A stretch of DNA of 64,000 nucleotides, taken from NCBI GenBank assembly GCA_944324805.1, contig CALUXS010000005.1, positions 89,157-153,156 of the forward strand, written 5' to 3'. Origin of the DNA: an uncultured Acholeplasmatales bacterium. GTDB taxonomy: Bacteria > Bacillota_I > Bacilli_A > Acholeplasmatales > Anaeroplasmataceae. The translations under genes were made by a program, and so were the position numbers. Each line of letters starts with the position of its first letter. Positions within the stretch are counted from its first letter, which is position 1. The notes under the pieces are model-generated. The model saw only the letters and a list, made by a program, of their open reading frames with translations, had not been told where the DNA came from and ran no database searches. Of the stretch, positions 14,120 to 56,296 are shown piece by piece.

Positions 14120-17100
14120 TTATCGTAGTACAAATACGTATCTACCAGAAATTTCTTTTATATCCCAAATGTTAACAATATCAATTTGAGTCAATTCAGT
14201 TATTACACTCATTTTTTCTTTATCCGGTCCAAAGAATTCACTAGCAACTTGTGTAACATCATATGTTCCAACAGAATCTTGGGAATTATATTCACCTATA
14301 TTTCCATAACATAATTCTACATTTGTTTGACCAGTACCAGAATTTATAGCATATCTTCCCATAATTGAACTATTATTCTTTTCACATGCAACAATTAAAT
14401 TGCCTTGCTTATATATCTTAACATTTGCTGCACTATTTTTAACAGTAATTTTACCAATTCCTGATGTGAAACTCATAATTCCACCACCATAATTGTCTAC
14501 TAATATTTTTCCATCATAAATACAATGATCAATGTTAATTTCCATTCCTGAAATTCTATCATCTACACGTCCAATAAAACCACCGCAATATCTATTTGAA
14601 CCTGAACCAAGGGTTGTATATACAACCGAATTAGAAATATTAACACTCATATCAGTTACTGAAGAATCATTTTGCACAAAGCCTACCAATCCACCAATAT
14701 CTTGTCCAGATGTAGTATTAACGCCTGTAATTATATCAGTTTCTTCATTGTGAAGACTAACTTGTGTAATGTAATTATCTCCAGAAGTTATATGTCCAAC
14801 TAATCCACCTATTCGTTTATTTGCAGATATATTAATTCCACTTATTTTTACATTATGTATGTATCCGCCACTCATTCTTCCAACTATTCCAACTCTTTCA
14901 CCAGTAGTTGATTGTAAATCTATATTAACAAAATTTACATTCATTATTGTTCCACCATCAAGTTGATTGAATATACTCAATGTATCTTTAGAATTTGCTA
15001 TCGAAATATTAGATATAGTATGTCCATTTCCATTAAATAAACTAGAGAATTTTTTAGTTCCTGAGTTAGGTGTCCAATTGAATCCTGAGAAATCCAAGTC
15101 TGCTTTCAAGCTATAAATAACTGGAGAACTTGAGCCATTACTCATTAAATTGTAGAACTCTTCTTTTGTAGTTATATCTTTGACATCAACCTTTATACTA
15201 GTGATAGCTGACTTTTCTGTTTCTTTTACATTTGTAACAACCATATGAATATAATAACCATTTTCATTAGAATTTGTTGCTTGAACACTTACTAAATCAT
15301 CAGTTATATAGAACTTTTCACCTTTACTTATAATTGTATCTACATCTTCTACTGAATTACTTGAAGTATAAACATACATATTTGCATTTACATTATCTAA
15401 TTCACCACTAACAAGGAATCCATCTCTATTTATATATACATTAGGTTGTGTTACAAATGACACTTTAGCATCAGGATCAACAACATATACATCATATGAT
15501 TTTGTTGTTTTGACATTAGGATTTAATTTTGAAATAGCCTCAAATGTAACTGTATAAATACCAGGAGTAGATGTATAAACATTTGAAACCTCTATACCTT
15601 GAGCATTTTTATTTATCCTATATGTATATGAAACATTCAAGTCATAATCCTGTCCTTCAACTAATAATTTTCCATTATAGTCTGATGAATTTGTTACAGC
15701 TACTTTTTCCAAAGTAAATTGTTCATATTTATCTAGGATTATTTTTTCTACATCGTCACCAATTTTTATACTTCCAAGTTCAGGTGAAGCTTTTTTTACA
15801 GTAACTTCAAATGTTTTTTCAGTTGAAACTGTATTAAGTATTGTATATGTTAATCCATCATCATTTAAAATTACCCTATTGTATATTAGTTTAGCAGTTA
15901 ATGTTACTTTTACATCAGAATTTCTATCTCTATTAACTGTTACTAAACGTTCTGTTGAACCAGAATTTGAAATAATATCCTCTTGACCTATTGATAAAAC
16001 ATTTGGATTTGAAGAATACCAAATTACATCAGTTGCATTTAATCTTGTTGGTAATAAAAAGTCTTGATAAATAGCATTTGGATCACAAGTTAATGATAAT
16101 GCTTTTTTAGCTCCCTCAAGTATTGCATGATCCTCATCTAAATCCCCATTTACTTCTAAATCATAATGTTCATATTCGTTCCATGAATTTTTATTTAGAG
16201 TAGCTCCTATAGGACTTCCATCATTTAAAACTTTTAAATTTTCATCTTTAAGAACTAAAAAATCACCCAAATTAATAGAACCATCCTCATTTCTTAATTC
16301 AGAATGAATATTTGGATTTTCTAAACCACTTGGAGCCTCAACGCTAACAAATGATTCATCACTAAGCCCTTCTTCGTATAAAACACCACTTTTTTCACTT
16401 ACATAACTTGAAGCATCAGAATATCCCTCAAATATATTATATTTTTCTTTTCCTACATTTAGTAAACTATTATTCATAGTTCCTCTAAAGGCATCAGTTC
16501 CAACTGAATTATTAGATGCATAGGATAACAATCCAGAAAATACATTATAACTATCTTCAGTTCTTGCTAAATTGAAATTTGTAGATACACTATCTCCCTC
16601 TGGTATAGATAATGAACTATCAATTTTTCCTGTTGTCTCATCAATAACCGCACTATTATTGTAAGTAGTTGTATTATAAACAGAAATTATACCTGGATTA
16701 GAATTATCTCCAACGCCATGCAAACGATTATTAAAGGCAATACAGTTGTATAACTCTACATCACCTTTCATAATTGAGCCACCAAGCTTAAATCCAATTC
16801 CATCACCAAGGGTAGTACGATATGATGGTTCTGTTATAGGTTCATTACTAGTGTTTTTCTCGCTCATTTTTGTATACAAGAAACCATTTTCAAATGAAAC
16901 ACAATTATAAAGTATTACTCTACCAATGTTACCAGAATCTTGCTTTGCAAATAAATCCCAACCATCATCTGCATTTCGATAAGCTATACAACCATCAAAC
17001 ACATTTCCATAGCCTACTGTAAGCTTAGCTGCAAATCCATCAGCATTTTCGCCACCTGTTTGGTCATCAAAATTATTATAAGATGTACAATTTTTAATTA

Positions 17101-17671
17101 AATTATTACATGGCCATTCATCCATATTAACCATCGAAGAACCACCACGACCAATTTGCAAACCAGTATCTCTATTATCATGGAATACACAATTTTCTAC
17201 CACATTGTAACTACCAGAAACATACATACCATTGTCTCCAGCACCTTTTATTTCTAATCCATAAATATTATAATAATTTCCTGATAATGTTACGCCTCTA
17301 TTAGTAGATAAAAAGTCCATTTCACTAAAATCGAATACAACTTTAGAACCTTCTACCTATGGTTTTAATGTTATCGGCTTATTAGATGTACCAATTTTAG
17401 ATAGATAGATTGGCAAACTAAATTCGTACGTTCCTTCAGCAAAAAGTACTGTTTCCCCTGCATTTGCCAAAACAGCTGCACTTGCACCATCTAATGGGCT
17501 TTCTTTTGTACCAGAATTCGATTCTACCCCAGTTGGAGAAGCATAAATTATTTTTCCTTCTTCTTTTCCTTCAGAACCATCACCAGTTCCACCTTCCTTT
17601 TTACATGATACAAATGTCAATGCAAAAAGGAATACAAGGAAACTTACAATAAATTTCTTACCTATTTTCAT
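14120..17671 (-). pseudogene. Surface PL9 pectate lyase with Ig-like and GLUG regions, interrupted by one in-frame TAG
   Basis: Two adjacent same-frame segments form one gene. Segment 17357-17671 encodes a lipoprotein signal (lipobox FVSC, Cys23) and the first beta-helix turns, ending ITLKP then TAG. After the TAG the frame continues without shift (VEGSKVVFDFSEMDF) into the 1066-residue segment. Counting from the Met at 17320, the PL9 calcium ligands are Asp94, Asp118, Asp119 and Asp122 (NADGFAAK, NADDGWD) and the catalytic base is Lys178 (GIGFKLGG). After the helix come Ig-like segments (a WYSSNP motif) and C-terminal GLUG-type repeats (GGLVG, GGFIG). All catalytic residues are intact, so the stop is recent, an error, or read through. 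A change from CAG (Gln) would explain it. Confidence 0.85.
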
Positions 17672-28516: not shown

Positions 28517-29572
28517 TTATTTATCTTCTTTTACAGTAGATTGCTCATCTACTTTTTCTTCTTTATTTTCTTCTATAGTCTTAACTTCCAAATTAGATTC
28601 TGTCTTTTTGTCCTCTTTTATCTCTGTAACAGAAGCTTTCATGGCTTGTTGTTTCTTTTTATTTATCTCATCTATTTGATAAGGGCGAGGTAATTTTGTG
28701 TTCTTTTTACGTAAAATAAAGTAACCTAATACACCGCAAATACCAACATAAATAACCATTACAATTACTGTCTTTACATATATAGAAGTAGGCTTACGTT
28801 CCTTATCAGTCATTGTAATGCCATTATTAGAATTACTGTTATAAGTTTCTAACCAATCATTGTAAAAAGACATATACTTATCAGCATCTAAATCGCTAAG
28901 ATATGTGTCATAAGCAGAAACTAGCTTATCCACTTCTTTGAAATAATCAGAATCAATATTTAAATCACATGTAATAGTTCCGACTATTTCGCCCTTAGCA
29001 TTCTTTACTTCTACCTTATTGATTGCACCATCAAGTTCTTCTTCAATAATTTTTGTGCTTAAATCAATCTCACAGAATTTTAATTCCTTAGCTGCAGATA
29101 CATAATAGCGATTAGTATCTTCTCCGCCTTCAACTGCATCAATAGGATCATTAAATGTATATTCGTATGATTTGTCATTATTGTAGAAAACTAAACTTGT
29201 ATAGTTTTTAATTGGTGCATTGTCACTTTCCTTTTTTCCATCTAAATCAAAGTTAATATTATCAACAAAGAAAATTAATGCATCTTGGTAACGATTAGTA
29301 GTTTGTTCCTGTTCATCAATAGTTACCTTAGTTTCTTCAGCAATAACGCCTTCATATACTACTAATTTAAAGTCATCATTGCCACCTAAATCAACTTCTT
29401 CTTTATTATAAAATGGTAAAAACATTTTCGCTAAAGAATCATAATCATCATTTTCAATTGCACTATAAATCATAGTTTGAGTATTAGACATATAAAAGCT
29501 ATAGTATGATGTCATCCATACCATAATACCTAATATAATAGCAATACCAAAAAACAAAATTTTTTTAACCAT
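28517..29572 (-). CDS. Uncharacterised bitopic membrane protein
   Basis: 351 residues. N-terminal membrane helix (about 4-26), an extracytoplasmic domain of about 235 residues (about 30-265), a second helix (about 270-292), then a basic and acidic cytoplasmic tail rich in Glu, Lys and Thr. The outside domain contains NWLETY- and FYNNDKSYEY-like segments I cannot place in a family. It appears to be a single-gene unit closed by a terminator. Function unknown. Confidence 0.8.
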   Translation of the reverse strand: MVKKILFFGIAIILGIMVWMTSYYSFYMSNTQTMIYSAIENDDYDSLAKMFLPFYNKEEVDLGGNDDFKLVVYEGVIAEETKVTIDEQEQTTNRYQDALIFFVDNINFDLDGKKESDNAPIKNYTSLVFYNNDKSYEYTFNDPIDAVEGGEDTNRYYVSAAKELKFCEIDLSTKIIEEELDGAINKVEVKNAKGEIVGTITCDLNIDSDYFKEVDKLVSAYDTYLSDLDADKYMSFYNDWLETYNSNSNNGITMTDKERKPTSIYVKTVIVMVIYVGICGVLGYFILRKKNTKLPRPYQIDEINKKKQQAMKASVTEIKEDKKTESNLEVKTIEENKEEKVDEQSTVKEDK

Positions 29573-29818: not shown

Positions 29819-29856
29819 AAATAAGACTCACCACTAAGGGTGAGTCTTATTTTTTT
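29819..29856. terminator. Strong hairpin between tRNA-His and the CvpA-like gene
   Basis: 12-bp stem ATAAGACTCACC (29821-29832) with GGTGAGTCTTAT (29839-29850). A long T run follows on the plus strand and T-rich sequence on the minus strand, so it probably ends the giant gene and blocks read-through from the tRNA. Confidence 0.75.
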
Positions 29857-32800
29857 AAAACTTTGATTTTAACATTTGTTTTAGAGCAATTATTTGAGCT
29901 TGATTCAAATATTCTGTTTCTAAGGTGTCTAAAATTACTAAATTAGATTCAAATCTTAATACATCAAATTTTGCTTTTTCTAATTCTACCAACTTGTAGT
30001 CGATACCATATTCAAAGACATAATCATCATAAGCGGCACCAAGGCTAGCAAGATTAATTTTAAATGATTGATATTCACTATTATACACATCCCGTCCACT
30101 TACTTTGAATCCCATAATAGTGTATTCACCTAATAATAAATTTGAAACAATTGCTCTAGAGATTTGTGATTTCGTAAGATGATATATTTGTTCATCAGTT
30201 AAATTTAGTAAAGACATACCATCAATATTAAATTCAAATCCCTCTAAAGTAGATTGTCCAGCTACTATTTTTATTGCTGTTAAGAAATTAATTATTTCTT
30301 CTTTACTTAATACTTGAGTTTTAGAACCATTAATATGATATTCTGAATAAACTTTTTCAGACTCTAATAACGAACTATTATTAATGTTAACACTATTATT
30401 ACTTGCTTTAATAATTTCATTAGAAACACTACTTTGTATTACTAAGCTTGATAATAATGAATCTTTATTATCAAAAATTTGTTCAGCATCAATACTAAAT
30501 GAACCAAAATTATCAATACCTAATTTTTGAGCAAAACTAACTAGTAATTTAAATTCCTCTTTATCAATTGTCTTCTCCTGATAATTAACACCAATTGGTA
30601 AAATAACCTCATCTAAGTAGCATAAATTATCTTCGGTAACATTTCTTACCCTTTCTCCAATTGTAAAGTAGATAATCTTACTTAAGGCAATAGAATCTAT
30701 TATATTTTCATAGTCATCACGTTTTATGATTGAATCTGCATCAACAACTATTGTATTACCAACTATAGGCAACTCTAAAGAGTTCAACGCAACAAATATG
30801 TTGTTTATTTCTTCATCAACTACCCAATTAAAATCTGTGTCATAATTAAGTATAATTTCTTCTTTTGTAACATTTAATCTACTAGGGATATTTAAAGCTT
30901 GCTTTCCATCATTATCAGTTATAGAAATAATTTGATTAATTAATGTTGAATTAAGAATTATTGATTTTAAAATAGCCTCTTTCAATAAGTCCTTCTTCAT
31001 TTTAATTTCATCACTATCACCAGCTGAATAGAAAATATTTGAGACCTCAAATGTCTTAGAAAGTTCTTCTTGGAAGTCATCCTTTCCAAATTTTGCACCT
31101 AATTCAGTAACATTAAATATATCAAGAAGATGACCTATTTCTCCTTCTTCGATGATTTCATCAAACTCATTTCTTGATGCATACCAACTATAAGGGCCAG
31201 ATAGTGTATTATTTAAAACATTTGGAATAATGATAGTATCATTATTTTTAAGGTTTAATTCAACTTGTTTCACAAGTGTATTCTCTAAAATATACGATGT
31301 CAATAAAGAATCTCTTTTTTCTTCGTAATTTGCTATAAATACATTTCTAATTAATCCATTGATATCTGAAAATTTACTTAATATATCATCTTCAATAGAA
31401 ATATCAAATGATTTTTTCATGGCTGAAACTAAATTTTTCCATTCACTTGCTTTAATGTATTTCTCAGTTTCAGTAGATTCTTGTGAAAGTGCAGTATTAG
31501 GAACAAAAATTTTACCTTCTAAATCTTTATTATTCAATAAATTGTATGACATTGTTAAAGAAATAACCTTAGATTTAGAAATAATTTCGATTTTACTCAT
31601 ACTATTATCTTCTTTTGCTGGCAAATCAAATAATAAAATCTTATTAATTAATTGACTAGCATCAACATTTTCAAATGAGCTTAATTTAATTTCTAATTCA
31701 TCAATTGCAGTTATAATTTTATAAACTTCATATTCATTTATACTATTACCATACCAATTTGAATTTTCAAAATTTTCAAAATCACATTCAGACAAATATT
31801 CTGGGATTTTAATATATTCATTAGCACCATTATTACTTAAATTCAAAAAATAATTTATTACAGTCGCATGAATTATGTCTGTCTTTAACATTGTGTCTTT
31901 ATTTTCGGTGATTGCATCTAAATTATAAGCTAAAGAGTTATCTTTAACATAAATAACTTTTGCTGCTGCATTAAATACATTTTTTATTTCATTTTTTGTA
32001 ATAACAGTAATATCATCAAAAGACTCCTCTACAGTATTAGGAATTACGAAACTAAGTTCACCTAAATCCATATTCTCTAATATATTACCGACACTACACC
32101 AAATTATATTTGATAATAGTATTACATCTAATTTTTCTTCTTCAATATTCAATAATTCAACTATATAATTTGGATCATTTGACACTAACTTATTAATATC
32201 AAAATATTCAAGGGAATTAAGAATATTACTAAACTCTGGCTTCCAGGCTTCATATATGATATTCATATCTACACCTTCGATTGAATAATCATATCTTGCT
32301 GGTATAGTTATATATTTTCCTAAATCTTCATTATTCTTAGTAGCCTTTACGATATAGTTTGATGCAGTAGCCACTAGCACATCTGATTTATTTATTGAAC
32401 TTTTTACCTCTTCATCCTTTAATAATTCAATTACCTTAGTTGGATCTTCAGTAAAAATATCTAAACTATCAATCTTATTAAGTATAATGGATGCTGAATT
32501 AAAGATATTTTTTATTTCTTCTTTTTTAATCATGCCATTATTTGCACATGCTAAATCAGGTGTAATAATTTCAAAACTTGACAAATTAACATTTTGCATA
32601 GAAATGCTGCATCCATAATATATTATTTTTGATTCTAATAAATATTCAAGTAAACTTTGATTATTGTCATAGCTTGAATTCATAATATTTGTAATTCCCT
32701 TAATAACATTAATGTCCTTATAATCAACACCAGGAGAAATATACTGAATTATACCTTTACTACAAGCAACTCGCAAACTATTTAATAAAATTCTAAGTTC

Positions 32801-34702
32801 GCCTGGCACTAAAGCACCATCAACAACCTCATCAGTCCAATTTATATCGCGTGGAATAACTATCTCTTCAACTTTATAAAACTTTTCTAGCGTAGTTTCT
32901 AAATATCCATAAATAAAGTCTGAGTTAAATAATACATTTACTGATTCATATTTATTTACATTATCTACCATAACACTAAAGTTAGCATCAACTTCTTGTT
33001 TTTTTGAATAGTTTTCAGAAAAAACATTTTCTATTGCTTTAGCCATAGATCCACTATTTTTTTCTTCTAAAACCATTAAGTTTGTTAAGCCGGTAATACT
33101 AGAAAAAGTGTCTTCAATTGCATTAATTTCATTAATCCAGTCAAATTCCTGTCCTTCAAAAGGATTTTCATATTCAATATTATTTTTATCTATTGCTATG
33201 CTAAACGCATAATTTATTCCTCTGCTTATAATTCCATTCATTTTTTTAGATTTATCAGCATTTCCATTCCAAAAACTCATATTTTCAACGCCAGAATAGA
33301 ATGTAGAAAATGCCTCTAATCCTAAATTTGTTGTGTTTACATAGAAAGATAATTTATCATTTTCACTCTTATTTTCAACAGTATAATTTAAAATATCAAT
33401 GACTTCAGGAGCAGAATTTATGACGCTTTTTAACAATAACTTTGCATCATCAAAAGTAACAATATCAGCAGGTGCAAGATAATCATTTGAATCAACGTCA
33501 CCAAACATTGCATCATAAAAGCCTAAAATATTATTAGCTAATTCTTTGTTTTCTAAATTTAAATTGTTAACAACCAATTCAAAGTTCTTAGTGACACTAC
33601 TAATTGCAATTTTAGTCATATTTTTTAAATATTCTGTTGATTGATAGTTATCAATTATTGCTTCTAATTCTAAGTTGAAATTTTCATTGTCAAAAAGTTT
33701 TTCCATCAATTTAAGAGCAGCATCCGGATCTTTTCCTGAAACTATCGCAATAGTTAATTCTTCTCCGCCATATTTACCTAACAAATCTAACAAATCATTT
33801 GCAATTCCTGCAATTGATCCCAATTCATTACTTCCATTAACCCTATACTCATCACCATTATAATCAGTTGTCTTTCCAGAAATAACAGCATCAGCAAAAA
33901 ATAGATAGAATGGAACATTATCCGAATTTTTATAATTATTAAGAAGCTTAAAAATTCCTGTATTACCAAAAGTTTTTACCATGTTATTCATATCATAGAT
34001 TTCTGATAACTCAGGATCCGTAAATTTTACTTCATCATTTTCTTCTCTTCCACCTGTAACTGAAAATAAAATCCAACCCAAAAAGGAAAATGTAACTAAA
34101 CCTGTAATTAAACCACGTACTAAACCAACGCCACCGCCAAGAATTCTATGTTTTTTATAAACCTTGTTTCTTGATATTGTTTTTTTCTTATATTTTCCCT
34201 CTCTAAAGAAAATAAAATAGAAAACATTTAATATGAATAAGACTATTAAATAACAAACTAAACTAACCAAAAAAGCACAAAATCTTAAACTCATCTCAGC
34301 CCATACTGCAATTTGAGGATAAATTTCAATTGCTATTTGATCATAGCCTCCAGCTTTTTCAGCGACAAGTTTCAATATGTATTCTTCTAATACGCTTAGC
34401 ATATTCGGATTTGATACACTAACTCCTAATTTTTCTTCTAAATTAATTCCTATGGCTAATAAACTGTTATAAAATACTTTACCACCATCAGAAACTATTA
34501 TTGTAAAAAAGATAATTGCAAAAATAACTGCAAAAATCATTATTACAAACCTAAAAATACTACTTCTAAATCCTCTTATAAATCCTACTAGCGTTCCAAC
34601 TAATACAATCGCTATGAATAAAAAGGTTGGAACAAAAAAAACCCAAGGATTACTTTCGACAAACTGAATAAATTGTTCCACTCTTACCACACTCTCTTTC
34701 AT
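29855..34702 (-). CDS. Giant CvpA-like membrane protein with a degenerate repeat array
   Basis: 1615 residues. The first 215 hold four membrane helices (about 20-45, 48-70, 138-166, 192-216) with CvpA/colicin-V-production hallmarks: GFIRGFRSSIF after helix 1 and ILGGGVGLVRGLITG before the last. Thereafter there are about 1400 hydrophilic residues without further helices. From about residue 590 a loose repeat recurs at roughly 80-120 residue spacing. Each copy has a hydrophobic run with Ser/Thr-Ile-Ile, a polar helix, then an IP or VP motif and an acidic helix, for example around 692, 775, 863, 942, 1045, 1137, 1247, 1341, 1418. Probably anchored with a long extracytoplasmic array. Ordinary CvpA is about 170 residues. 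Function unknown. Confidence 0.75.
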   Translation of the reverse strand: MKESVVRVEQFIQFVESNPWVFFVPTFLFIAIVLVGTLVGFIRGFRSSIFRFVIMIFAVIFAIIFFTIIVSDGGKVFYNSLLAIGINLEEKLGVSVSNPNMLSVLEEYILKLVAEKAGGYDQIAIEIYPQIAVWAEMSLRFCAFLVSLVCYLIVLFILNVFYFIFFREGKYKKKTISRNKVYKKHRILGGGVGLVRGLITGLVTFSFLGWILFSVTGGREENDEVKFTDPELSEIYDMNNMVKTFGNTGIFKLLNNYKNSDNVPFYLFFADAVISGKTTDYNGDEYRVNGSNELGSIAGIANDLLDLLGKYGGEELTIAIVSGKDPDAALKLMEKLFDNENFNLELEAIIDNYQSTEYLKNMTKIAISSVTKNFELVVNNLNLENKELANNILGFYDAMFGDVDSNDYLAPADIVTFDDAKLLLKSVINSAPEVIDILNYTVENKSENDKLSFYVNTTNLGLEAFSTFYSGVENMSFWNGNADKSKKMNGIISRGINYAFSIAIDKNNIEYENPFEGQEFDWINEINAIEDTFSSITGLTNLMVLEEKNSGSMAKAIENVFSENYSKKQEVDANFSVMVDNVNKYESVNVLFNSDFIYGYLETTLEKFYKVEEIVIPRDINWTDEVVDGALVPGELRILLNSLRVACSKGIIQYISPGVDYKDINVIKGITNIMNSSYDNNQSLLEYLLESKIIYYGCSISMQNVNLSSFEIITPDLACANNGMIKKEEIKNIFNSASIILNKIDSLDIFTEDPTKVIELLKDEEVKSSINKSDVLVATASNYIVKATKNNEDLGKYITIPARYDYSIEGVDMNIIYEAWKPEFSNILNSLEYFDINKLVSNDPNYIVELLNIEEEKLDVILLSNIIWCSVGNILENMDLGELSFVIPNTVEESFDDITVITKNEIKNVFNAAAKVIYVKDNSLAYNLDAITENKDTMLKTDIIHATVINYFLNLSNNGANEYIKIPEYLSECDFENFENSNWYGNSINEYEVYKIITAIDELEIKLSSFENVDASQLINKILLFDLPAKEDNSMSKIEIISKSKVISLTMSYNLLNNKDLEGKIFVPNTALSQESTETEKYIKASEWKNLVSAMKKSFDISIEDDILSKFSDINGLIRNVFIANYEEKRDSLLTSYILENTLVKQVELNLKNNDTIIIPNVLNNTLSGPYSWYASRNEFDEIIEEGEIGHLLDIFNVTELGAKFGKDDFQEELSKTFEVSNIFYSAGDSDEIKMKKDLLKEAILKSIILNSTLINQIISITDNDGKQALNIPSRLNVTKEEIILNYDTDFNWVVDEEINNIFVALNSLELPIVGNTIVVDADSIIKRDDYENIIDSIALSKIIYFTIGERVRNVTEDNLCYLDEVILPIGVNYQEKTIDKEEFKLLVSFAQKLGIDNFGSFSIDAEQIFDNKDSLLSSLVIQSSVSNEIIKASNNSVNINNSSLLESEKVYSEYHINGSKTQVLSKEEIINFLTAIKIVAGQSTLEGFEFNIDGMSLLNLTDEQIYHLTKSQISRAIVSNLLLGEYTIMGFKVSGRDVYNSEYQSFKINLASLGAAYDDYVFEYGIDYKLVELEKAKFDVLRFESNLVILDTLETEYLNQAQIIALKQMLKSKF

Positions 34703-45587: not shown

Positions 45588-46148
45588 CTATTTTATTTCT
45601 CTAATTTTCGCATCAATAATTTTATCATTTTGTTTAGCTTTTCTATAGTTAATGAACGCAATTATTATATTATAAATGGCAAATAAAATTATTATTGCTC
45701 CTGCAACATATCTTAATACCTTTATTATTGAAGCAAAGCCAAAAAGAATTACAAATAAACCAACTATTATATTAAATAATTCATTTTTGAAAGTTTCCTT
45801 TTTATTTTCATTTAATCCTACACGAACTAAAGGTAAAATTACAAGGAAAATTGCAGCAATTATATTAACAATTGTCATTTGGAAAAAAATCAATAGAAAG
45901 CCAATAACAAGATAGACAATCGCACTATAAAAAGCATATTTACCTAATCTAGATTTGTCATTGTATGTAAATAGTAATCTAGGAATACTAATTATTACAA
46001 AATAAATTCCAAACAAAATTGTAAAAAAATTTAAAGTGTTTTCTAGTTTTAAAAAGAAAAATAATATTCCTATAATTAATTGTATTATCGCGTAAAAAAT
46101 TGCTCGTTTGAAAATATCCTTATATTCTCTTGATGTCTCCAATTCCAT
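45588..46148 (-). CDS. DUF308/HdeD-like membrane protein
   Basis: 186 residues from the ATG at 46148, about six hydrophobic helices in paired repeats, Lys-rich C-terminal tail. Matches the DUF308/HdeD style of small membrane proteins of unclear function. Its start overlaps the end of the second GH28 gene by 29 bases, so it is co-transcribed with it. Confidence 0.75.
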   Translation of the reverse strand: MELETSREYKDIFKRAIFYAIIQLIIGILFFFLKLENTLNFFTILFGIYFVIISIPRLLFTYNDKSRLGKYAFYSAIVYLVIGFLLIFFQMTIVNIIAAIFLVILPLVRVGLNENKKETFKNELFNIIVGLFVILFGFASIIKVLRYVAGAIIILFAIYNIIIAFINYRKAKQNDKIIDAKIREIK

Positions 46149-47658
46149 CACCTGTCACATCCTCTCCGATATTACCTGTAAATTTAACGTTTTTCAATTT
46201 TATCTCATTAATGTTTTCAGCATATATACCCTTTTTTAGCATTTTCACTTTATGTTCAACCATAACAGGATAACCTTCTACTGCATCTTCCTTATATGAA
46301 AAGCTTACATTTTCAAAGGAAATACCTTCTATTGGTTCTTCAGGAAGACCTAAGAAAACTGCTGCTGCTAGACTGACGTTAGTACAATTCATATTTTCAA
46401 AGTGAAAACTTCCAATCTTAGGAGTTCTTTCATCAACTGGCAGTTTTTCTTTTGTCCATGCATATTCCTCATGACCACCTGCTGGCCCCATATTATAAAA
46501 CATGTTTACAACAAATGGCGTCAATACATTATCCATCTTTATATTTTTGAAACTAACGTTATCTATGATACCTACTCTTCCTCTTCCTCGTCTTGTTTTA
46601 ATTCGCAATCCACGATCTAAGTCTAAGAAAAGACATTTTGATACCTCTACATTTTTTATTCCTGCAGATGATTCACTACCAAAAACTACTCCTCCATGAC
46701 CTGCTGTCATAAGACAATTTCTTATTGTTATGTTTTCAGAAGCCTTCTTATATTTTTTTGCTAATTCTAAGGCACCAGACTTAATCGCTATACAATCATC
46801 ACCAACCTTAAAACTTACACCTGCTATTAAAATATCATTTGAGCAATCCGGATCTAAGCCATCTGTTGTAGGCATATCAGTAGGATTTTCTAACCTCAAA
46901 TTTATAAAATTTAAATTACTAGAAAAGTAAGGATGAACATTCCAAGATGGAGAATTATGAATATATAGACCTATAACATTTATATTTTTAGAATGTGCAA
47001 TATATAAACCAAAAGGACGCCAAGCAATTCGTTTTTCTCTATGCTTATGATACCAATCGCTCATATAGGCACGTTCATCAACCTCTCCGTTTCCTATTAT
47101 ATTCAAATTTTCAACATCTAAGGCAGTGAGTGTAGAAGCAAAGCAATCTTCTATTTCCCCTTCCCACGTACCATAATTTTTTTCAAATCCTGTTTTATCA
47201 TTTTTAAATAAACCTGGTAATACAGGATAATTATTTCTATCTAAATCACCAATTATTTTTGCATTTTTTGAAATATAAAATGTCATATTTGATTTGAAAA
47301 ATAATGATGTAATTAAATATGTTCCTTCATCTAGGTAGACAGTACCATTTTCTGGGCAAGCCATAATTGCAGCTTGAATTTTTAAAGTATCATTTTTTAT
47401 TCCATCTTTAGAAGGATTAAATGAGTTTGTATGTATGCAAAGACTCTCCATTAAGGTTTCAAATTCTACTTTTTCTTCACCAATACTTACAATATATTTT
47501 TCATTAGGTTCTAAATCGAAAATTGTAAAAACATTTCTATTTTCAGTAAAAAGATATTTACCATTTAAATAAACATCATATTCCTTTTCGTTATAATAAG
47601 GATTATCTGAAGATAATTCAAAAGATGCACTTCTTGATGTTATTTTTAAGATTTCCAT
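46120..47658 (-). CDS. Second cytoplasmic GH28 polygalacturonase
   Basis: 512 residues, same plan as the enzyme at 5714-7270: N-terminal FnIII-like module (about 1-70), then GH28 beta-helix. Catalytic motifs are TTDG (264-267, Asp266; Thr replaces the usual Asn), GDDC (286-289), GHGG with His321 and RIK (352-354). No signal peptide. It lies far from the importer, in an operon with two membrane proteins, so it may handle a different galacturonide. No cre-like box was seen at its operon. Confidence 0.9.
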   Translation of the reverse strand: MEILKITSRSASFELSSDNPYYNEKEYDVYLNGKYLFTENRNVFTIFDLEPNEKYIVSIGEEKVEFETLMESLCIHTNSFNPSKDGIKNDTLKIQAAIMACPENGTVYLDEGTYLITSLFFKSNMTFYISKNAKIIGDLDRNNYPVLPGLFKNDKTGFEKNYGTWEGEIEDCFASTLTALDVENLNIIGNGEVDERAYMSDWYHKHREKRIAWRPFGLYIAHSKNINVIGLYIHNSPSWNVHPYFSSNLNFINLRLENPTDMPTTDGLDPDCSNDILIAGVSFKVGDDCIAIKSGALELAKKYKKASENITIRNCLMTAGHGGVVFGSESSAGIKNVEVSKCLFLDLDRGLRIKTRRGRGRVGIIDNVSFKNIKMDNVLTPFVVNMFYNMGPAGGHEEYAWTKEKLPVDERTPKIGSFHFENMNCTNVSLAAAVFLGLPEEPIEGISFENVSFSYKEDAVEGYPVMVEHKVKMLKKGIYAENINEIKLKNVKFTGNIGEDVTGDGIGDIKRI

Positions 47659-50424: not shown

Positions 50425-50912
50425 AGTAATCCCTCAATTTCTTCAATTATTATTTTATCAGATAAAACTTCCTTTACGAATTCTTTTCTAAACGGAATCA
50501 TTCTTCTTTTTTCCTCTACAATTGCTATTAGCATATGGCCTTGAGGATATTCTTTTACATCAATTACTTTACCTCTTTTTTGCCCTTTTGTATTGTATAA
50601 ATCTTTATTCAATAAATCGCTATAGAAATATTCATCTTCTTCTAAATCATCATTAGATGCTATTGCGTATAAGATGTTTCCTACTAATGGTTCAATCAAA
50701 TTAATATCTTCATAGCCATCAAATACTACTAATATTCCTTGCTTATAATTAGCAACCATTTTAATTTTTAAAGGTAAATATTCATTTCCTTCTTGATAAT
50801 AAACTATATTACCTTCAAAAAAACGATTAAAATCACTATAATTTTGAATTTTCACCGCTCCCTTTAAGCCATGAGTAGCAAGGATTTTACCACATGATTT
50901 ATAATTAGACAT
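50421..50912 (-). CDS. rimM: Ribosome maturation factor RimM
   Basis: 163 residues from the ATG at 50912; a TTG one codon earlier is an alternative. Needed for 30S subunit maturation. N-terminal GKILATHGLKGAVKI and the later DEYFYSDLLNKDLY with the PRC-barrel are typical. Overlaps addA at its start and trmD at its end. Confidence 0.95.
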   Translation of the reverse strand: MSNYKSCGKILATHGLKGAVKIQNYSDFNRFFEGNIVYYQEGNEYLPLKIKMVANYKQGILVVFDGYEDINLIEPLVGNILYAIASNDDLEEDEYFYSDLLNKDLYNTKGQKRGKVIDVKEYPQGHMLIAIVEEKRRMIPFRKEFVKEVLSDKIIIEEIEGLL

Positions 50913-53900
50913 CAACTTTTCTAACCTCCTGCTTATATAAACTTAGTAAATAAGCTTCTACTTTTTTATTTGCTACACTTCTAACATACTTAGCATATAA
51001 ACTAAGCTGTCTATCATAAGCGTCATCTGAAATATCAGAAAGCTTATAATCAATAATAACAAATTTATCTTCATATTCCAATAGTAAATCAATAATTCCT
51101 GAATATTCCTTGTTATCTTCTTCAAAGTAAAATTCATATTCTTGGTGTATTTTAGCATTTTCAATTTCATCAAAAATAGGTAATGCTAAAATTGATTTAA
51201 TTTTATCTACAAATTCTTCTTTAACAAGTGAATAATCAGGATTTTTCAAGTCTATACTTTCTAAAATCGCATGGAAGTAAGTACCAAATTCCAAAGCTGC
51301 TTTTTCTTGTTTAGTTAATATGCTTGTTATTTGTTTAGATATTTTTTCTTTCTTCAAGATACTTCCTCTAAAATCATTTTCTACATACCTTAACATTTCA
51401 TTTTTAGTATCTATATTTTCAATTTTCTTATTCAATAAGTAATTTTTAGAAAGTTCTAGGTTATCAATATCGATTTTAACTTTATTTCGATTAATCTTGG
51501 TTACATTTGCTAATAGTGCAGCAAAATTTGACAAATTACTAGGAATTAGTTCTTTCGTTTTAAATTCCTTTTCTTTATGAATTAAAATAATTTTTTCTCT
51601 TGCTCTTGTTAATGCAACATAAAACAATCTTATTCTTTCACTTATATTTCGCTTTTTTTCTTTATTTAGAACTAAATTTTTTAAAATAGTATTCTTTAAA
51701 CCATTTTCGTATAAAGGAATAAAAATTCCATATTCATTATCAAATCCAAATCTTGCTTTACTATCACTATCATTAAACTTTACATCAAGAAGCGGGAAAA
51801 TACAATATGGATATTCAAGTCCTTTTGAATGATGAATGGTCATAATTCTAACCTCATCATTCTTACTTAATTCTACTTTATATTTTAACTTTGCATTATT
51901 ATCATCAAAAATTTTAGCCACTAGTTCAACAGATTTAGAAAAGTCATAACCAAGTTTATTGTAATTTACTAAAAGTTCCTGAATCTTTTCTATTTCTAGT
52001 AAGCTATTTCTAACATTTCCTATCAAAGTTAATTTATTATAAATTGAAAATTTTTCTAACAAATCATACAAAATACTAGCTGCTGAGTTTTTTAAATCAA
52101 TATTTTTTATAATTGATACAACCTCGCACTCTCTATTTTCTCTTATAATTTCATAAATTTTTTCATCACTATATTCACAAATAAAGCTTCTTAAGACTCC
52201 AACTAAGGCTCTTTTATAAGAAGAATCATATTTAGATTGCTTTATACATACACAAAGTTCTAATAGGGAAAGAATTGATTTACTAAAATCACTTTCTGTC
52301 AAATCAATATCGGCATCAATAGTTAGTGGTATTTTAAAATATGTAAATACTTTTTTAAATACCGGAAACTGTGTTGCCCTATCGACTATAATTGAAATAT
52401 CACTATATTTAGCTTTACGTATTTTTTTAGTTTCCTTGTCAAATGTGTAATTATGAGCAATTATTTCCTTTACTTTTTTAGCAGCAATAAATGCTTCAAT
52501 TTCAAAACTTTCAAACTGAAACTCTTCTGGCATATCATAGGTTATATTTTCTAAATGATAATCATAATCTGGTTTATTTACTTCATAATCTTGAAGACCA
52601 AATACCATTTGATGATCCTTAATATAATTTGCATCACCATAATCTTCTGTCATTGCACTACTAAAAATAATGTTTATATCTTCTAAAACCTCTTTACGAG
52701 ATCTAAAATTGTGTAATAAATCTATTTTAATTCCCTTATTTTCTAAACTATATTGATCATATTTATTTTTAAAGATATATGGATTAGCATTTCTGAATCT
52801 ATAAATAGATTGCTTAATATCTCCAACCATGTATAAATTATTTTTTTCTATTTTACTTAAAAATGCCTCTTGTAAATCAGATGTATCTTGATATTCATCA
52901 ACAAGAATTTCTTTTAATTTATAAAAATCATTTCTAACGTTTTCATAATCACTAACTAATTTAATAGCCATTTTAGCAATATCATTGAATGAAAAGGCCT
53001 GATATTTAAATTTATAATTCCATATTGCCTCACTTATATCTAAGCACATATCAACTATGAAATTAACATCATCTCTAGTCTTTTTCAGTGCTAATATCAT
53101 TTCTTCTTTACTTGCATAGTTTTCTAAAAACTTTGTTTTAAATGACTTTAAATTATCTGTAACAGATTGTTTCAAGTTCTTTATATTTTCTTCTGTATTT
53201 CTTTTTAAGCTAGGTAATTTAAATTCTGTTAAAAAAGCAAGCAAATCTTCATAATTTTTTATATGACTTGCATTTAATAAAGCTTCTTCTAAATACGAAC
53301 TTAATTTTTCATTATCTTCATCAAGAATGCCCTTTAAATCAACCATATCACATAGTATACTATCAAACTCTTTTAATGCACATTCTTCATATTCTAGGGC
53401 TAATTTTTTTAAATTATCTTCTTTGAAAAAATTACTTGTAAAATTTTCTAAATATTCTTTTTCATTAGGAATTAATTCTAACTTATCACTAATAGATAGA
53501 AGCATACTTATAATTTCTGTGTCATTCTTTAAACTATAATGACGAAGAAAATTCAAAAAAGGTTCATAATCACTTTCATAATAGGAAGCAAAGATATTTT
53601 CAATAATCTTCCTTTTTTCTTCTCTTAAAACAGCTTGATCAGCAATGGTTAATTTAGGATCTACTCCTAACAGATAATAATATTTTCTAACCATTGCTAG
53701 TGAAAAGGAATCAAAGGTAGTAATATAAGCGTTTAATGCTTTATTTGCCTCTTCTTCTAAACCAGCTTTACGCAAATTTTTAGCTATTCTTTCTTTCATT
53801 TCAGCAGCGGCTGCCTTTGTAAAAGTCAAAACTAATATTTGATCAATACTTGTTCCTTCTTTACATAATTCAAGTATACGCGCACTTAATACGGCTGTTT

Positions 53901-53982
53901 TACCACTTCCTGCTCCCGCTGAAACTATAATATTTTTATTTCGCTCATATATAGCTTTAGTTTGCTTATCAGTCCATGCCAT
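50905..53982 (-). CDS. addA: AddA helicase-nuclease subunit
   Basis: About 1025 residues from the ATG at 53982 (AGGAGGTGA upstream). UvrD-type helicase fused to a RecB-family nuclease. Walker A SAGAGSGKT near the N-terminus, motif II DEYQDTSD, and the late helicase motif LFYVALTRA. The C-terminal nuclease motif has GIIDLLLE and IIDYK. Processes double-strand breaks with AddB for recombination. Shorter than the Bacillus protein (about 1230). The start overlaps addB by 14 bases. Confidence 0.95.
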   Translation of the reverse strand: MAWTDKQTKAIYERNKNIIVSAGAGSGKTAVLSARILELCKEGTSIDQILVLTFTKAAAAEMKERIAKNLRKAGLEEEANKALNAYITTFDSFSLAMVRKYYYLLGVDPKLTIADQAVLREEKRKIIENIFASYYESDYEPFLNFLRHYSLKNDTEIISMLLSISDKLELIPNEKEYLENFTSNFFKEDNLKKLALEYEECALKEFDSILCDMVDLKGILDEDNEKLSSYLEEALLNASHIKNYEDLLAFLTEFKLPSLKRNTEENIKNLKQSVTDNLKSFKTKFLENYASKEEMILALKKTRDDVNFIVDMCLDISEAIWNYKFKYQAFSFNDIAKMAIKLVSDYENVRNDFYKLKEILVDEYQDTSDLQEAFLSKIEKNNLYMVGDIKQSIYRFRNANPYIFKNKYDQYSLENKGIKIDLLHNFRSRKEVLEDINIIFSSAMTEDYGDANYIKDHQMVFGLQDYEVNKPDYDYHLENITYDMPEEFQFESFEIEAFIAAKKVKEIIAHNYTFDKETKKIRKAKYSDISIIVDRATQFPVFKKVFTYFKIPLTIDADIDLTESDFSKSILSLLELCVCIKQSKYDSSYKRALVGVLRSFICEYSDEKIYEIIRENRECEVVSIIKNIDLKNSAASILYDLLEKFSIYNKLTLIGNVRNSLLEIEKIQELLVNYNKLGYDFSKSVELVAKIFDDNNAKLKYKVELSKNDEVRIMTIHHSKGLEYPYCIFPLLDVKFNDSDSKARFGFDNEYGIFIPLYENGLKNTILKNLVLNKEKKRNISERIRLFYVALTRAREKIILIHKEKEFKTKELIPSNLSNFAALLANVTKINRNKVKIDIDNLELSKNYLLNKKIENIDTKNEMLRYVENDFRGSILKKEKISKQITSILTKQEKAALEFGTYFHAILESIDLKNPDYSLVKEEFVDKIKSILALPIFDEIENAKIHQEYEFYFEEDNKEYSGIIDLLLEYEDKFVIIDYKLSDISDDAYDRQLSLYAKYVRSVANKKVEAYLLSLYKQEVRKVDV

Positions 53983-56296
53983 TTTCTTCACCTCCTAGAT
54001 CTTCAAATGCTTTAAAAGACACATCGTTATACATATTTTCCTTTTTAAAACATATTCGTTTATATGCACAAAATTTACAACTTTCATTTTCGCCATTAAT
54101 TCTAACAGGAGCAATCGGGAAATCGAAATTTCTTATTGCTTCTCTTAATTTCTCTAAAAGTTTAGGCATAATATCTAAAATTTCTTCAATTTGTTTTTCA
54201 TTATATACCTTCGCATATTTACTAAAGTTACCATCCTTAGTAACTGTCATTGATTTAATATATTCGCTAGCTTTGAAATTTGGATCTAAAAGTTCTAGTT
54301 CATTCCAATTGCTTGTTGAATATCCTTGAAGTTTAAAATTGTTCCATCTTGCAGCTTTCTCTTCTAAAGCTGAATTGATTAATGTAGTTGTTACCTTTTG
54401 TAAATATAAACCTATAACTTTTATTTTATATTTTTTAAACTCTTCATCATTATTTACTAAATACAAATATGAAGGAAGCTGCAAATTTTGACCATCTATG
54501 ATATTATTCAATTTTATAATATCACTTCCTGTTTTGTAATCAAATATTGCTAAATACAATGTATCATCAATTATCTTGTACAAAATCTTATCAATGAAAC
54601 CATAAAAATTGATGTTAGGTAAACTTACATTTATTTTTCTTTCACGATATACATCATTTAATTCCATTTTTGATTCAAATTCATGATTGAACTCTAAGAC
54701 ATCTTTTAATACTTTATCCATCAAACTGGCAAAAAATTGTTCCTTTTTAGTAAGTTTTTCCTTGCCACTTGCTATTTCCTTATCAAAATCAAAATCCTTA
54801 TTATAACTATCTTCAAGAATTTGGTGAGCGTAAGATCCAATGTTAGTAGCAAGAGTTGTTTCAAATTTTATTAAACCAAGAATGCGATCTAGATAATAGG
54901 AAAATGGGCAACCAAAATATAATTTTATATTAGAATATGACATATTAATATCCCTATCTAGAGGATGTTTTTCTAAAAACTCATTACTAAACTTTTTAAA
55001 TTTACTATCAAACTCTTGATATCTTAATTTTGATAATTGATATTTATGTAAATCCGTATGATCAACACCAAATTTATTATAATTATCTAGTAGGCTTCCT
55101 AAATATAGATTGTCTTCAATTTCAGAAAAGCCAAGTCTTCTATTACTATATGGAATGTTTTTCAATTCTAATGCAAATGCTAACTCACTTATTAATTGAA
55201 TACTAGCTCCGTCTAATTCTTTAAAGCTTATTTTTAAATTTTTTATTGATTCTATTTCTCTTAAAATTTGATTTTTTCTTAAGTTGTTTATTTCATATGA
55301 AGTAGAAATTCCTAACAAAATTTTAGACTCATCGCTTAAATAATCTTCATCCTTACATTTTTTAGGAAAATCATTATTAAAATTTAACAAATAAACATAA
55401 TCTAAATCCGTAAAATTACTACTTAATGTTACTAAATTAACGGCTTTATCATAGAGTTTTGTTTCATACTTTTTATTCCTAAAGCTTTCTAAAAATAATT
55501 CATATTCATCTTTCAAATTATTAAGATCTATACTATATTTATTTATTATTTTAACTATAAACTCTTTAATATCATTGCTTGTATCTTTAAAAATCTCTTC
55601 TATTGGTAAATTTTGTTTAATTTTTTCTAGTACTAATTGAACCTCTTCTTCAACTAATATTGACATAGTATCAGGGATGTTAACATTAATATTAAAGGAA
55701 GCTCCCATTCGTTTTAGGATTGGATAATATGATTCATCGACGTTAACTAAAAAAATATGACTTAAATCGGTTATTTTCAGCTTTTCTTCAATATCTAAAA
55801 ATAATTCATAGACCTCTGTTTCTTTATCAGGATAAGAATAATAAACCTTTTGACTAAATTTCACATTTTCATCCTGTTTAATATTAACATTAGCTATTTT
55901 TTTTAATATTTCAATGGTTCTTTTTAACTCTACTGATAACAGAGGGTTTATAAACGTTATATTGCTATTTTTTATTTTATTAATAAAAATCTCGTCAATT
56001 TGATAAAGTTTTACCTTAATTAATTCTTTTTTTACAGATACAAGACTATTTAGTTTAATATCATTGTATTTTTTATTTTCATCTAAAAAAGGTAAATACT
56101 TGCTTATTTCTCTCGCTTGAGGATATGAAAAATGAAATTTTTTATGCATATATGTTAATCCTTCAGATTTAACATATCCATATAAACCACGATATAGTTC
56201 ACTTACTGTTAAAAAAGAAAAATCATGGATACCTTTAATTTCTTTTAAAATTTTTTTCTTTACGTTTGAACTAGCCACTATTATTTCTTTTTGCAT
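53969..56296 (-). CDS. addB: AddB helicase-nuclease subunit, short form
   Basis: 775 residues against about 1160 in Bacillus subtilis. The C-terminal nuclease domain is clear: FIDKI and IFDYKTG carry the metal-binding residues. The iron-sulfur cysteines are present as CPFSYYLDR plus a C-terminal CxxCxxxxxC (CKFCAYKRIC). The N-terminal region lacks an obvious Walker A and seems to be a reduced helicase scaffold. Stop codon is TGA. Confidence 0.9.
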   Translation of the reverse strand: MQKEIIVASSNVKKKILKEIKGIHDFSFLTVSELYRGLYGYVKSEGLTYMHKKFHFSYPQAREISKYLPFLDENKKYNDIKLNSLVSVKKELIKVKLYQIDEIFINKIKNSNITFINPLLSVELKRTIEILKKIANVNIKQDENVKFSQKVYYSYPDKETEVYELFLDIEEKLKITDLSHIFLVNVDESYYPILKRMGASFNINVNIPDTMSILVEEEVQLVLEKIKQNLPIEEIFKDTSNDIKEFIVKIINKYSIDLNNLKDEYELFLESFRNKKYETKLYDKAVNLVTLSSNFTDLDYVYLLNFNNDFPKKCKDEDYLSDESKILLGISTSYEINNLRKNQILREIESIKNLKISFKELDGASIQLISELAFALELKNIPYSNRRLGFSEIEDNLYLGSLLDNYNKFGVDHTDLHKYQLSKLRYQEFDSKFKKFSNEFLEKHPLDRDINMSYSNIKLYFGCPFSYYLDRILGLIKFETTLATNIGSYAHQILEDSYNKDFDFDKEIASGKEKLTKKEQFFASLMDKVLKDVLEFNHEFESKMELNDVYRERKINVSLPNINFYGFIDKILYKIIDDTLYLAIFDYKTGSDIIKLNNIIDGQNLQLPSYLYLVNNDEEFKKYKIKVIGLYLQKVTTTLINSALEEKAARWNNFKLQGYSTSNWNELELLDPNFKASEYIKSMTVTKDGNFSKYAKVYNEKQIEEILDIMPKLLEKLREAIRNFDFPIAPVRINGENESCKFCAYKRICFKKENMYNDVSFKAFEDLGGEENGMD

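Follow-up and report, generated by a model that had tools for sequence, protein, structure and literature searches.

A giant protein with a CvpA-like membrane head and an array of degenerate alpha/beta repeats in an Acholeplasmatales bacterium and its relatives

What role could be played by a protein of 1615 amino acids that starts like the small membrane protein CvpA and continues as a long hydrophilic chain? The question is raised by an open reading frame on the minus strand at positions 29855-34702 of the window, i.e. the whole stretch of 64,000 nucleotides that was analysed, from an uncultured Acholeplasmatales bacterium. A preliminary description of this DNA had reported the frame with the same coordinates and had proposed a CvpA-style start fused to about ten degenerate repeats. 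The frame comprises 1615 codons from ATG to stop, it is present as a single copy in the genome of 1.83 Mb, and open orthologues of 1184-2277 aa were detected in 33 of 60 relative genomes (E<=1e-3); thus the gene is real. The protein consists of a four-helix CvpA-like head (residues 1-216), a helical linker (residues 217-585) and ten degenerate units (residues 586-1511), followed by a C-terminal tail. The upstream segment 34703-34730 (minus strand) has no clear ribosome-binding site and contains a TATAAT-like hexamer that ends a few bases 5' of the annotated ATG. Therefore the true start codon may be a few codons downstream of the annotated one.

The repetitive nature of the chain was hardly apparent from the single sequence. 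In an ungapped self-comparison the best score of 64 was modestly above those of shuffled sequences (mean 38, maximum 54), a comparison too weak to decide on repeats. On the other hand, profile self-comparison of residues 200-1615 based on six close orthologues yielded off-diagonal matches with E=4.7e-43. With match columns only, E was 1.2e-36, while six column-shuffled controls gave 0.22-0.93 and the reversed profile 0.24. A unit HMM seeded on these orthologues recognised ten contiguous units of 78-109 aa at residues 586-1511. Number, length and starting point of the repeats had been predicted well (about ten units of 80-120 residues from about residue 590). In remote orthologues outside the seed the HMM found 5-18 contiguous units, and after iteration over the set of giant proteins it identified 818 units in 63 proteins.

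All ten units are encoded on the minus strand. Unit 1 spans residues 586-685 (32648-32947; 47 bits with the unit HMM), unit 2 residues 683-769 (32396-32656; 37 bits), unit 3 residues 767-857 (32132-32404; 45 bits), unit 4 residues 856-938 (31889-32137; 37 bits) and unit 5 residues 934-1037 (31592-31903; 41 bits). These are followed by unit 6 at residues 1036-1132 (31307-31597; 55 bits), unit 7 at 1129-1238 (30989-31318; 62 bits), unit 8 at 1241-1335 (30698-30982; 38 bits), unit 9 at 1334-1415 (30458-30703; 40 bits) and unit 10 at 1413-1511 (30170-30466; 34 bits). The tail (residues 1512-1615; 29858-30169, minus strand) remained below the threshold of the unit HMM and no separate domain was recognised in it. 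It aligned with earlier units in the hhalign self-comparison and probably represents one further degenerate unit. In nearly all of the 63 proteins the last unit ends at most 129 aa from the C-terminus and a separate tip domain is absent; an exception is L169, where 679 aa separate the last detected unit from the C-terminus. No LPXTG motif was present in the C-terminal ends looked at.

The unit consensus starts with a helix carrying a near-invariant serine (92%), continues with a hydrophobic, strand-like I-x-[IV]-P segment (proline 67%) and ends with a second helix opened by a glutamate (90%). Apart from this serine and this glutamate the conserved residues mostly form the hydrophobic core. The order of a hydrophobic helix, an I/V-P motif and a polar or acidic helix had been recognised before; the near-invariant glutamate marks the start of the latter. 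With a net charge of -74 over 1030 aa the array is acidic, so that the term hydrophilic was fair, and its cysteine content is low.

Average identity is 28% between units that occupy equivalent positions in close orthologues and 20% between units of the giant protein itself, and tandem repetition at the DNA level is absent. Judged from these values, the array is old and its units are divergent rather than the product of a recent or phase-variable expansion. Yet gain and loss of units still occurs, because L035 lacks an in-register piece of 189 aa, equivalent to two units, relative to its neighbour L034.

For structure prediction 107 non-overlapping unit pairs were aligned and two neighbouring units of the array (residues 767-957, including units 3 and 4) were modelled with AF2. 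The model was confident with a pLDDT of 94.3 and a pTM of 0.88, and showed an alpha/beta unit. A Foldseek search with the pair model against PDB and BFVD yielded no match at E<=0.001; in the PDB the best one had an E of 2.1. No Pfam family matched the 107 unit pairs consistently, and comparison of PDB sequences with the unit profile revealed no convincing relative; the best score (E=0.023) came from EF-hand proteins over a partial stretch. The likeness to EF-hands (E 0.02-0.34 in the PDB) was judged superficial, because the match is partial and the pattern of aspartate ligands before I-x-x-x-E is missing. These data are suggestive of a new fold. This is a reasonable suspicion and not more, since Foldseek is insensitive for small helix-rich models.

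Could the repeats nevertheless be an artefact, due to chance or to the composition of a reading frame that is rich in AT and low in complexity? The modest excess over shuffled sequences in the single-sequence comparison would be in line with this. Yet the profile controls, the end-to-end units in 63 proteins, the confident model of the unit pair and the in-register deletion of two units in L035 refute the assumption, and we give it practically no weight.

The head (residues 1-216; 34055-34702, minus strand) was predicted by AF2 to form four long helices at residues 19-43, 45-83, 125-165 and 186-216, consistent with hydropathy. It is followed by the linker (residues 217-585; 32948-34054, minus strand), a domain that is helical almost throughout until residue 586 and is conserved in the family with invariant alignment columns. 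The mean pLDDT was 85.7. Foldseek of the head and linker model against the PDB gave no match at E<=0.001. The assignment of the four-helix start to CvpA stood in one comparison and fell short in another. With the Pfam family Colicin_V (PF02674) the full-length protein scored 15.6 bits (E=0.016, residues 27-68) and the N-terminal part alone 19.2 bits, both below the curated cut-off of 29.3. Colicin_V was still the commonest Pfam match among the orthologous heads (7 of 34), and NCBIfam gave nothing consistent. In contrast, when the profile of the giant heads was compared by hhalign with 28 short CvpAs encoded in these genomes, 190 columns across the whole four-helix region were aligned with a probability of 92.7% and an E of 4.2e-7. 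The reversed profile, which is the valid control for this comparison, gave 6%; L081 and L082 are CvpAs themselves and do not qualify as controls. Heads from other families of the class aligned with those of this family at 99%. Head identity among family members is 19-39% with respect to the protein studied here. TM1 and TM2 of the giant heads are joined by a turn of the G-x-x-[RK]-G-[FL] type. Taken together the data support homology of the giant head to CvpA.

On which side of the membrane is the array located? The median net charges of the loops in 68 heads were +3 for TM1-TM2, -3 for TM2-TM3, +7 for TM3-TM4 and -5 behind TM4, and the signs were kept in 93-96% of the heads. The set includes two unrelated L167 ORFs, which did not noticeably affect the medians and were left out of later profiles. 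According to the positive-inside rule the two basic loops would be inside, and the N-terminus and the whole repeat array would be outside the membrane (N-out/C-out). Charge bias and hydropathy thus back the envelope-exposed location assumed in the preliminary description. The predicted topology agrees with that reported for MarP, which has four N-terminal TM helices and a periplasmic C-terminal domain (PMC4992679).

The opposite topology would make the protein a membrane-bound intracellular scaffold. An acidic array with little cysteine suits either side of the membrane and AF2 says nothing on sidedness. However, the strongly basic TM1-TM2 and TM3-TM4 loops are conserved in 96% of the 68 heads and MarP sets a precedent for an external C-terminal part (PMC4992679). 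Thus a cytoplasmic array is very unlikely.

The architecture had been considered unusual, a view that did not hold. Within the order, 102 of the 160 genomes sampled contained a match to the unit-pair profile, and within the class 111 of 395; all 55 matching genomes of a phylum-wide sample belong to the same class. The sampled small genomes of 0.6-1.2 Mb, from two families (f8 and f18) and one genus (g26), gave no match; judged by their size they may be of the Mycoplasma and phytoplasma types. With a nine-row alignment as the query, named relatives with related loci were Acholeplasmatales, Anaeroplasmataceae and Anaeroplasma. A CvpA-like head fused to an array was found in 20 of 20 class-level loci fetched, with 5-28 units and lengths of up to 3159 aa. 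Such relatives are present in many gut bacteria that have a thin wall or none. Usually a genome carries one or two giant genes, and both this genome and those of most relatives also encode a short CvpA on its own. Two further CvpA-headed proteins were seen. In a sister family a giant of 1425 aa (L100:5303-9580) has no detectable repeat units and adjoins the same two-TM partner as described below. In a relative an open frame of 4461 codons (L098:6937-17001) contains only about five weak units and is probably a very divergent array.

A penicillin-binding protein (PBP) transpeptidase domain was not detected in this genome, in its genus or in most of the order; the 22 genomes that possess it come mostly from the same family. 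Thus the host genus appears to lack peptidoglycan. According to the literature, Anaeroplasmataceae comprise species without a wall and others that possibly have one (PMC10868615). Because the giant protein is found in both, it is not tied to peptidoglycan.

Downstream of the giant gene lies a candidate for a syntenic partner (28517-29572, minus strand), a protein of 351 aa with a TM helix near each end, an ectodomain and a short tail. It has no confident Pfam family. Homologues were found in 51 of 55 genomes of the family and in three of three of the sister family, and in 15 of the loci examined the gene adjoins the giant gene or is within a few genes of it. The two probably do not form one operon, because a tRNA-His gene on the opposite strand sits between them. 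A different family of the class has the giant as a tandem pair, with one long (2.2-2.9 kaa) and one short protein (0.9-1.3 kaa; L158-L160, L171, L172, L174 and L177). These seven loci are flanked by a divergent trypsin-like (GSSGG) lipoprotein, and a 5'-nucleotidase-like lipoprotein also flanks the pair in this family. The tandem pair with its separate trypsin-like lipoprotein is an unfused echo, at the level of gene neighbourhood, of the MarP fusion. Elsewhere the neighbours are not conserved.

Three other genes of the window may be mentioned. A GH28 polygalacturonase at 46120-47658 suggests breakdown of plant pectin by an apparently wall-less host. A protein of 1066 aa at 14120-17320 has a sub-threshold match to aBig_2, an atrophied bacterial Ig-like domain, and is possibly another surface protein. 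At 50905-56296 two adjoining genes resemble an AddAB-type recombination pair; one encodes a UvrD-like helicase that includes a PD-(D/E)XK domain, the other a PD-(D/E)XK protein.

How does the giant protein compare with known systems? Like CvpA/Colicin_V (PF02674) it has four TM helices and, behind TM1, the G-x-x-[RK]-G-[FL] turn, and the profiles of the heads align over their full length. Unlike the giant with its 1615 aa and its array, members of PF02674 are short (about 235-250 aa among those seen) and devoid of repeats; the giant scores under the cut-off of the family, and a short CvpA is encoded by another gene of the genome. To our knowledge there is no settled molecular function of CvpA. 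The head of MarP is generally assigned to PF02674. The functions of CvpA in colicin V export and bile resistance are known from enteric bacteria only (PMC6705877). In MarP-type proteins four N-terminal TM helices are followed by a large C-terminal part outside the cytoplasm (PMC4992679), a layout that the giant would share by its predicted topology. Thus CvpA-domain proteins with a large ectodomain are already known in kind. Yet MarP carries a trypsin-like protease, while the giant carries a repeat array and its chain has no Pfam match to a trypsin-like protease domain. Like the repeat-array stalks of Gram-positive bacteria with Ig-like or helical units, it has many tandem folded units on an anchor, their number varying between species. 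In contrast to those stalks, which have a signal peptide, LPXTG or a lipobox, and a binding domain at the tip, the giant is anchored by an N-terminal polytopic head and neither LPXTG nor a tip was seen. Its alpha/beta unit also differs from theirs and has no relative in Pfam, PDB or Foldseek searches. No account of such a protein type, repeat family, size range or clade-wide spread was found in the literature searched.

We favor the view that the protein forms an extracellular solenoid that is tethered to the membrane and acts as a scaffold or spacer at the surface, with a probability of roughly one half. The CvpA-homologous head would tether the protein in the membrane, with the N-terminus and the array outside as in MarP. 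Behind the helical linker ten contiguous homologous alpha/beta units (5-28 in relatives) extend to or near the C-terminus in nearly all members. The AF2 model covers two of them, and the array as a whole could take the shape of an elongated acidic rod or of a superhelix on the cell surface. The length of this scaffold or spacer would be set by the number of units. Because nothing follows the array in nearly all members, its surface itself would be the functional part. In its own family the giant probably works together with the neighbouring two-TM protein. Of the earlier proposal of a surface stalk or envelope spacer, the CvpA-like anchor, the long array and the predicted outside location were borne out, and a stalk or spacer would be the best-fitting class of function.

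The array could be used differently, and a channel, signalling or substrate-binding role is possible. In a surface adhesin or ligand receptor the units would bind a glycan, mucin, a plant polymer or another cell, and their large number would provide avidity. An array placed outside by the positive-inside rule, unit numbers that differ between species, a rumen- or gut-type setting in related records and the GH28 polygalacturonase within the window are in line with such a role, and the fast divergence of the heads (19-39% identity) would also fit a host-facing ligand-binding protein. On the other hand, no known binding domain was recognised in Pfam or PDB, a tip domain is absent in nearly all members and the conserved residues, i.e. 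the hydrophobic core, one serine and one glutamate, look structural. The gene is core-like across many families and free of nucleotide-level tandem repeats of the kind expected if phase or length varied between cells of one strain. We consider an adhesin possible, yet doubtful. If instead the CvpA head were the working part of a channel, sensor or envelope-stress protein, the array would be a large ectodomain for sensing or gating. CvpA is required for deoxycholate resistance in enteric bacteria (PMC6705877), in MarP a head of the CvpA type is coupled to an enzyme in the periplasm (PMC4992679), and in seven loci of another family of the class the giant lies beside the separate trypsin-like lipoprotein. 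However, most genomes of the family possess a separate short CvpA as well, the serine protease neighbour is confined to one family and absent from the 64-kb window, and there is no evidence for a channel. This makes a role of that kind unlikely.

A membrane-tethered scaffold or spacer would bear on the biology of lineages that are abundant in guts and rumens. Many of them have no peptidoglycan, which raises the question of what covers or stiffens their surface, and the giant gene is among the largest and most widely kept candidates for a surface cover in such lineages. Besides the MarP protease the CvpA family gains a second kind of ectodomain, and the 818 units in 63 proteins define an uncatalogued repeat family that is ready for structural work. 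As a tentative proposal, a new repeat fold might build giant extracellular solenoids that are tethered by CvpA. These would be a core part of the surface, independent of a wall, in the wall-less and thin-walled relatives of Mycoplasma, i.e. Acholeplasmatales and neighbouring orders, and would perhaps assume part of the mechanical role of the lost wall.
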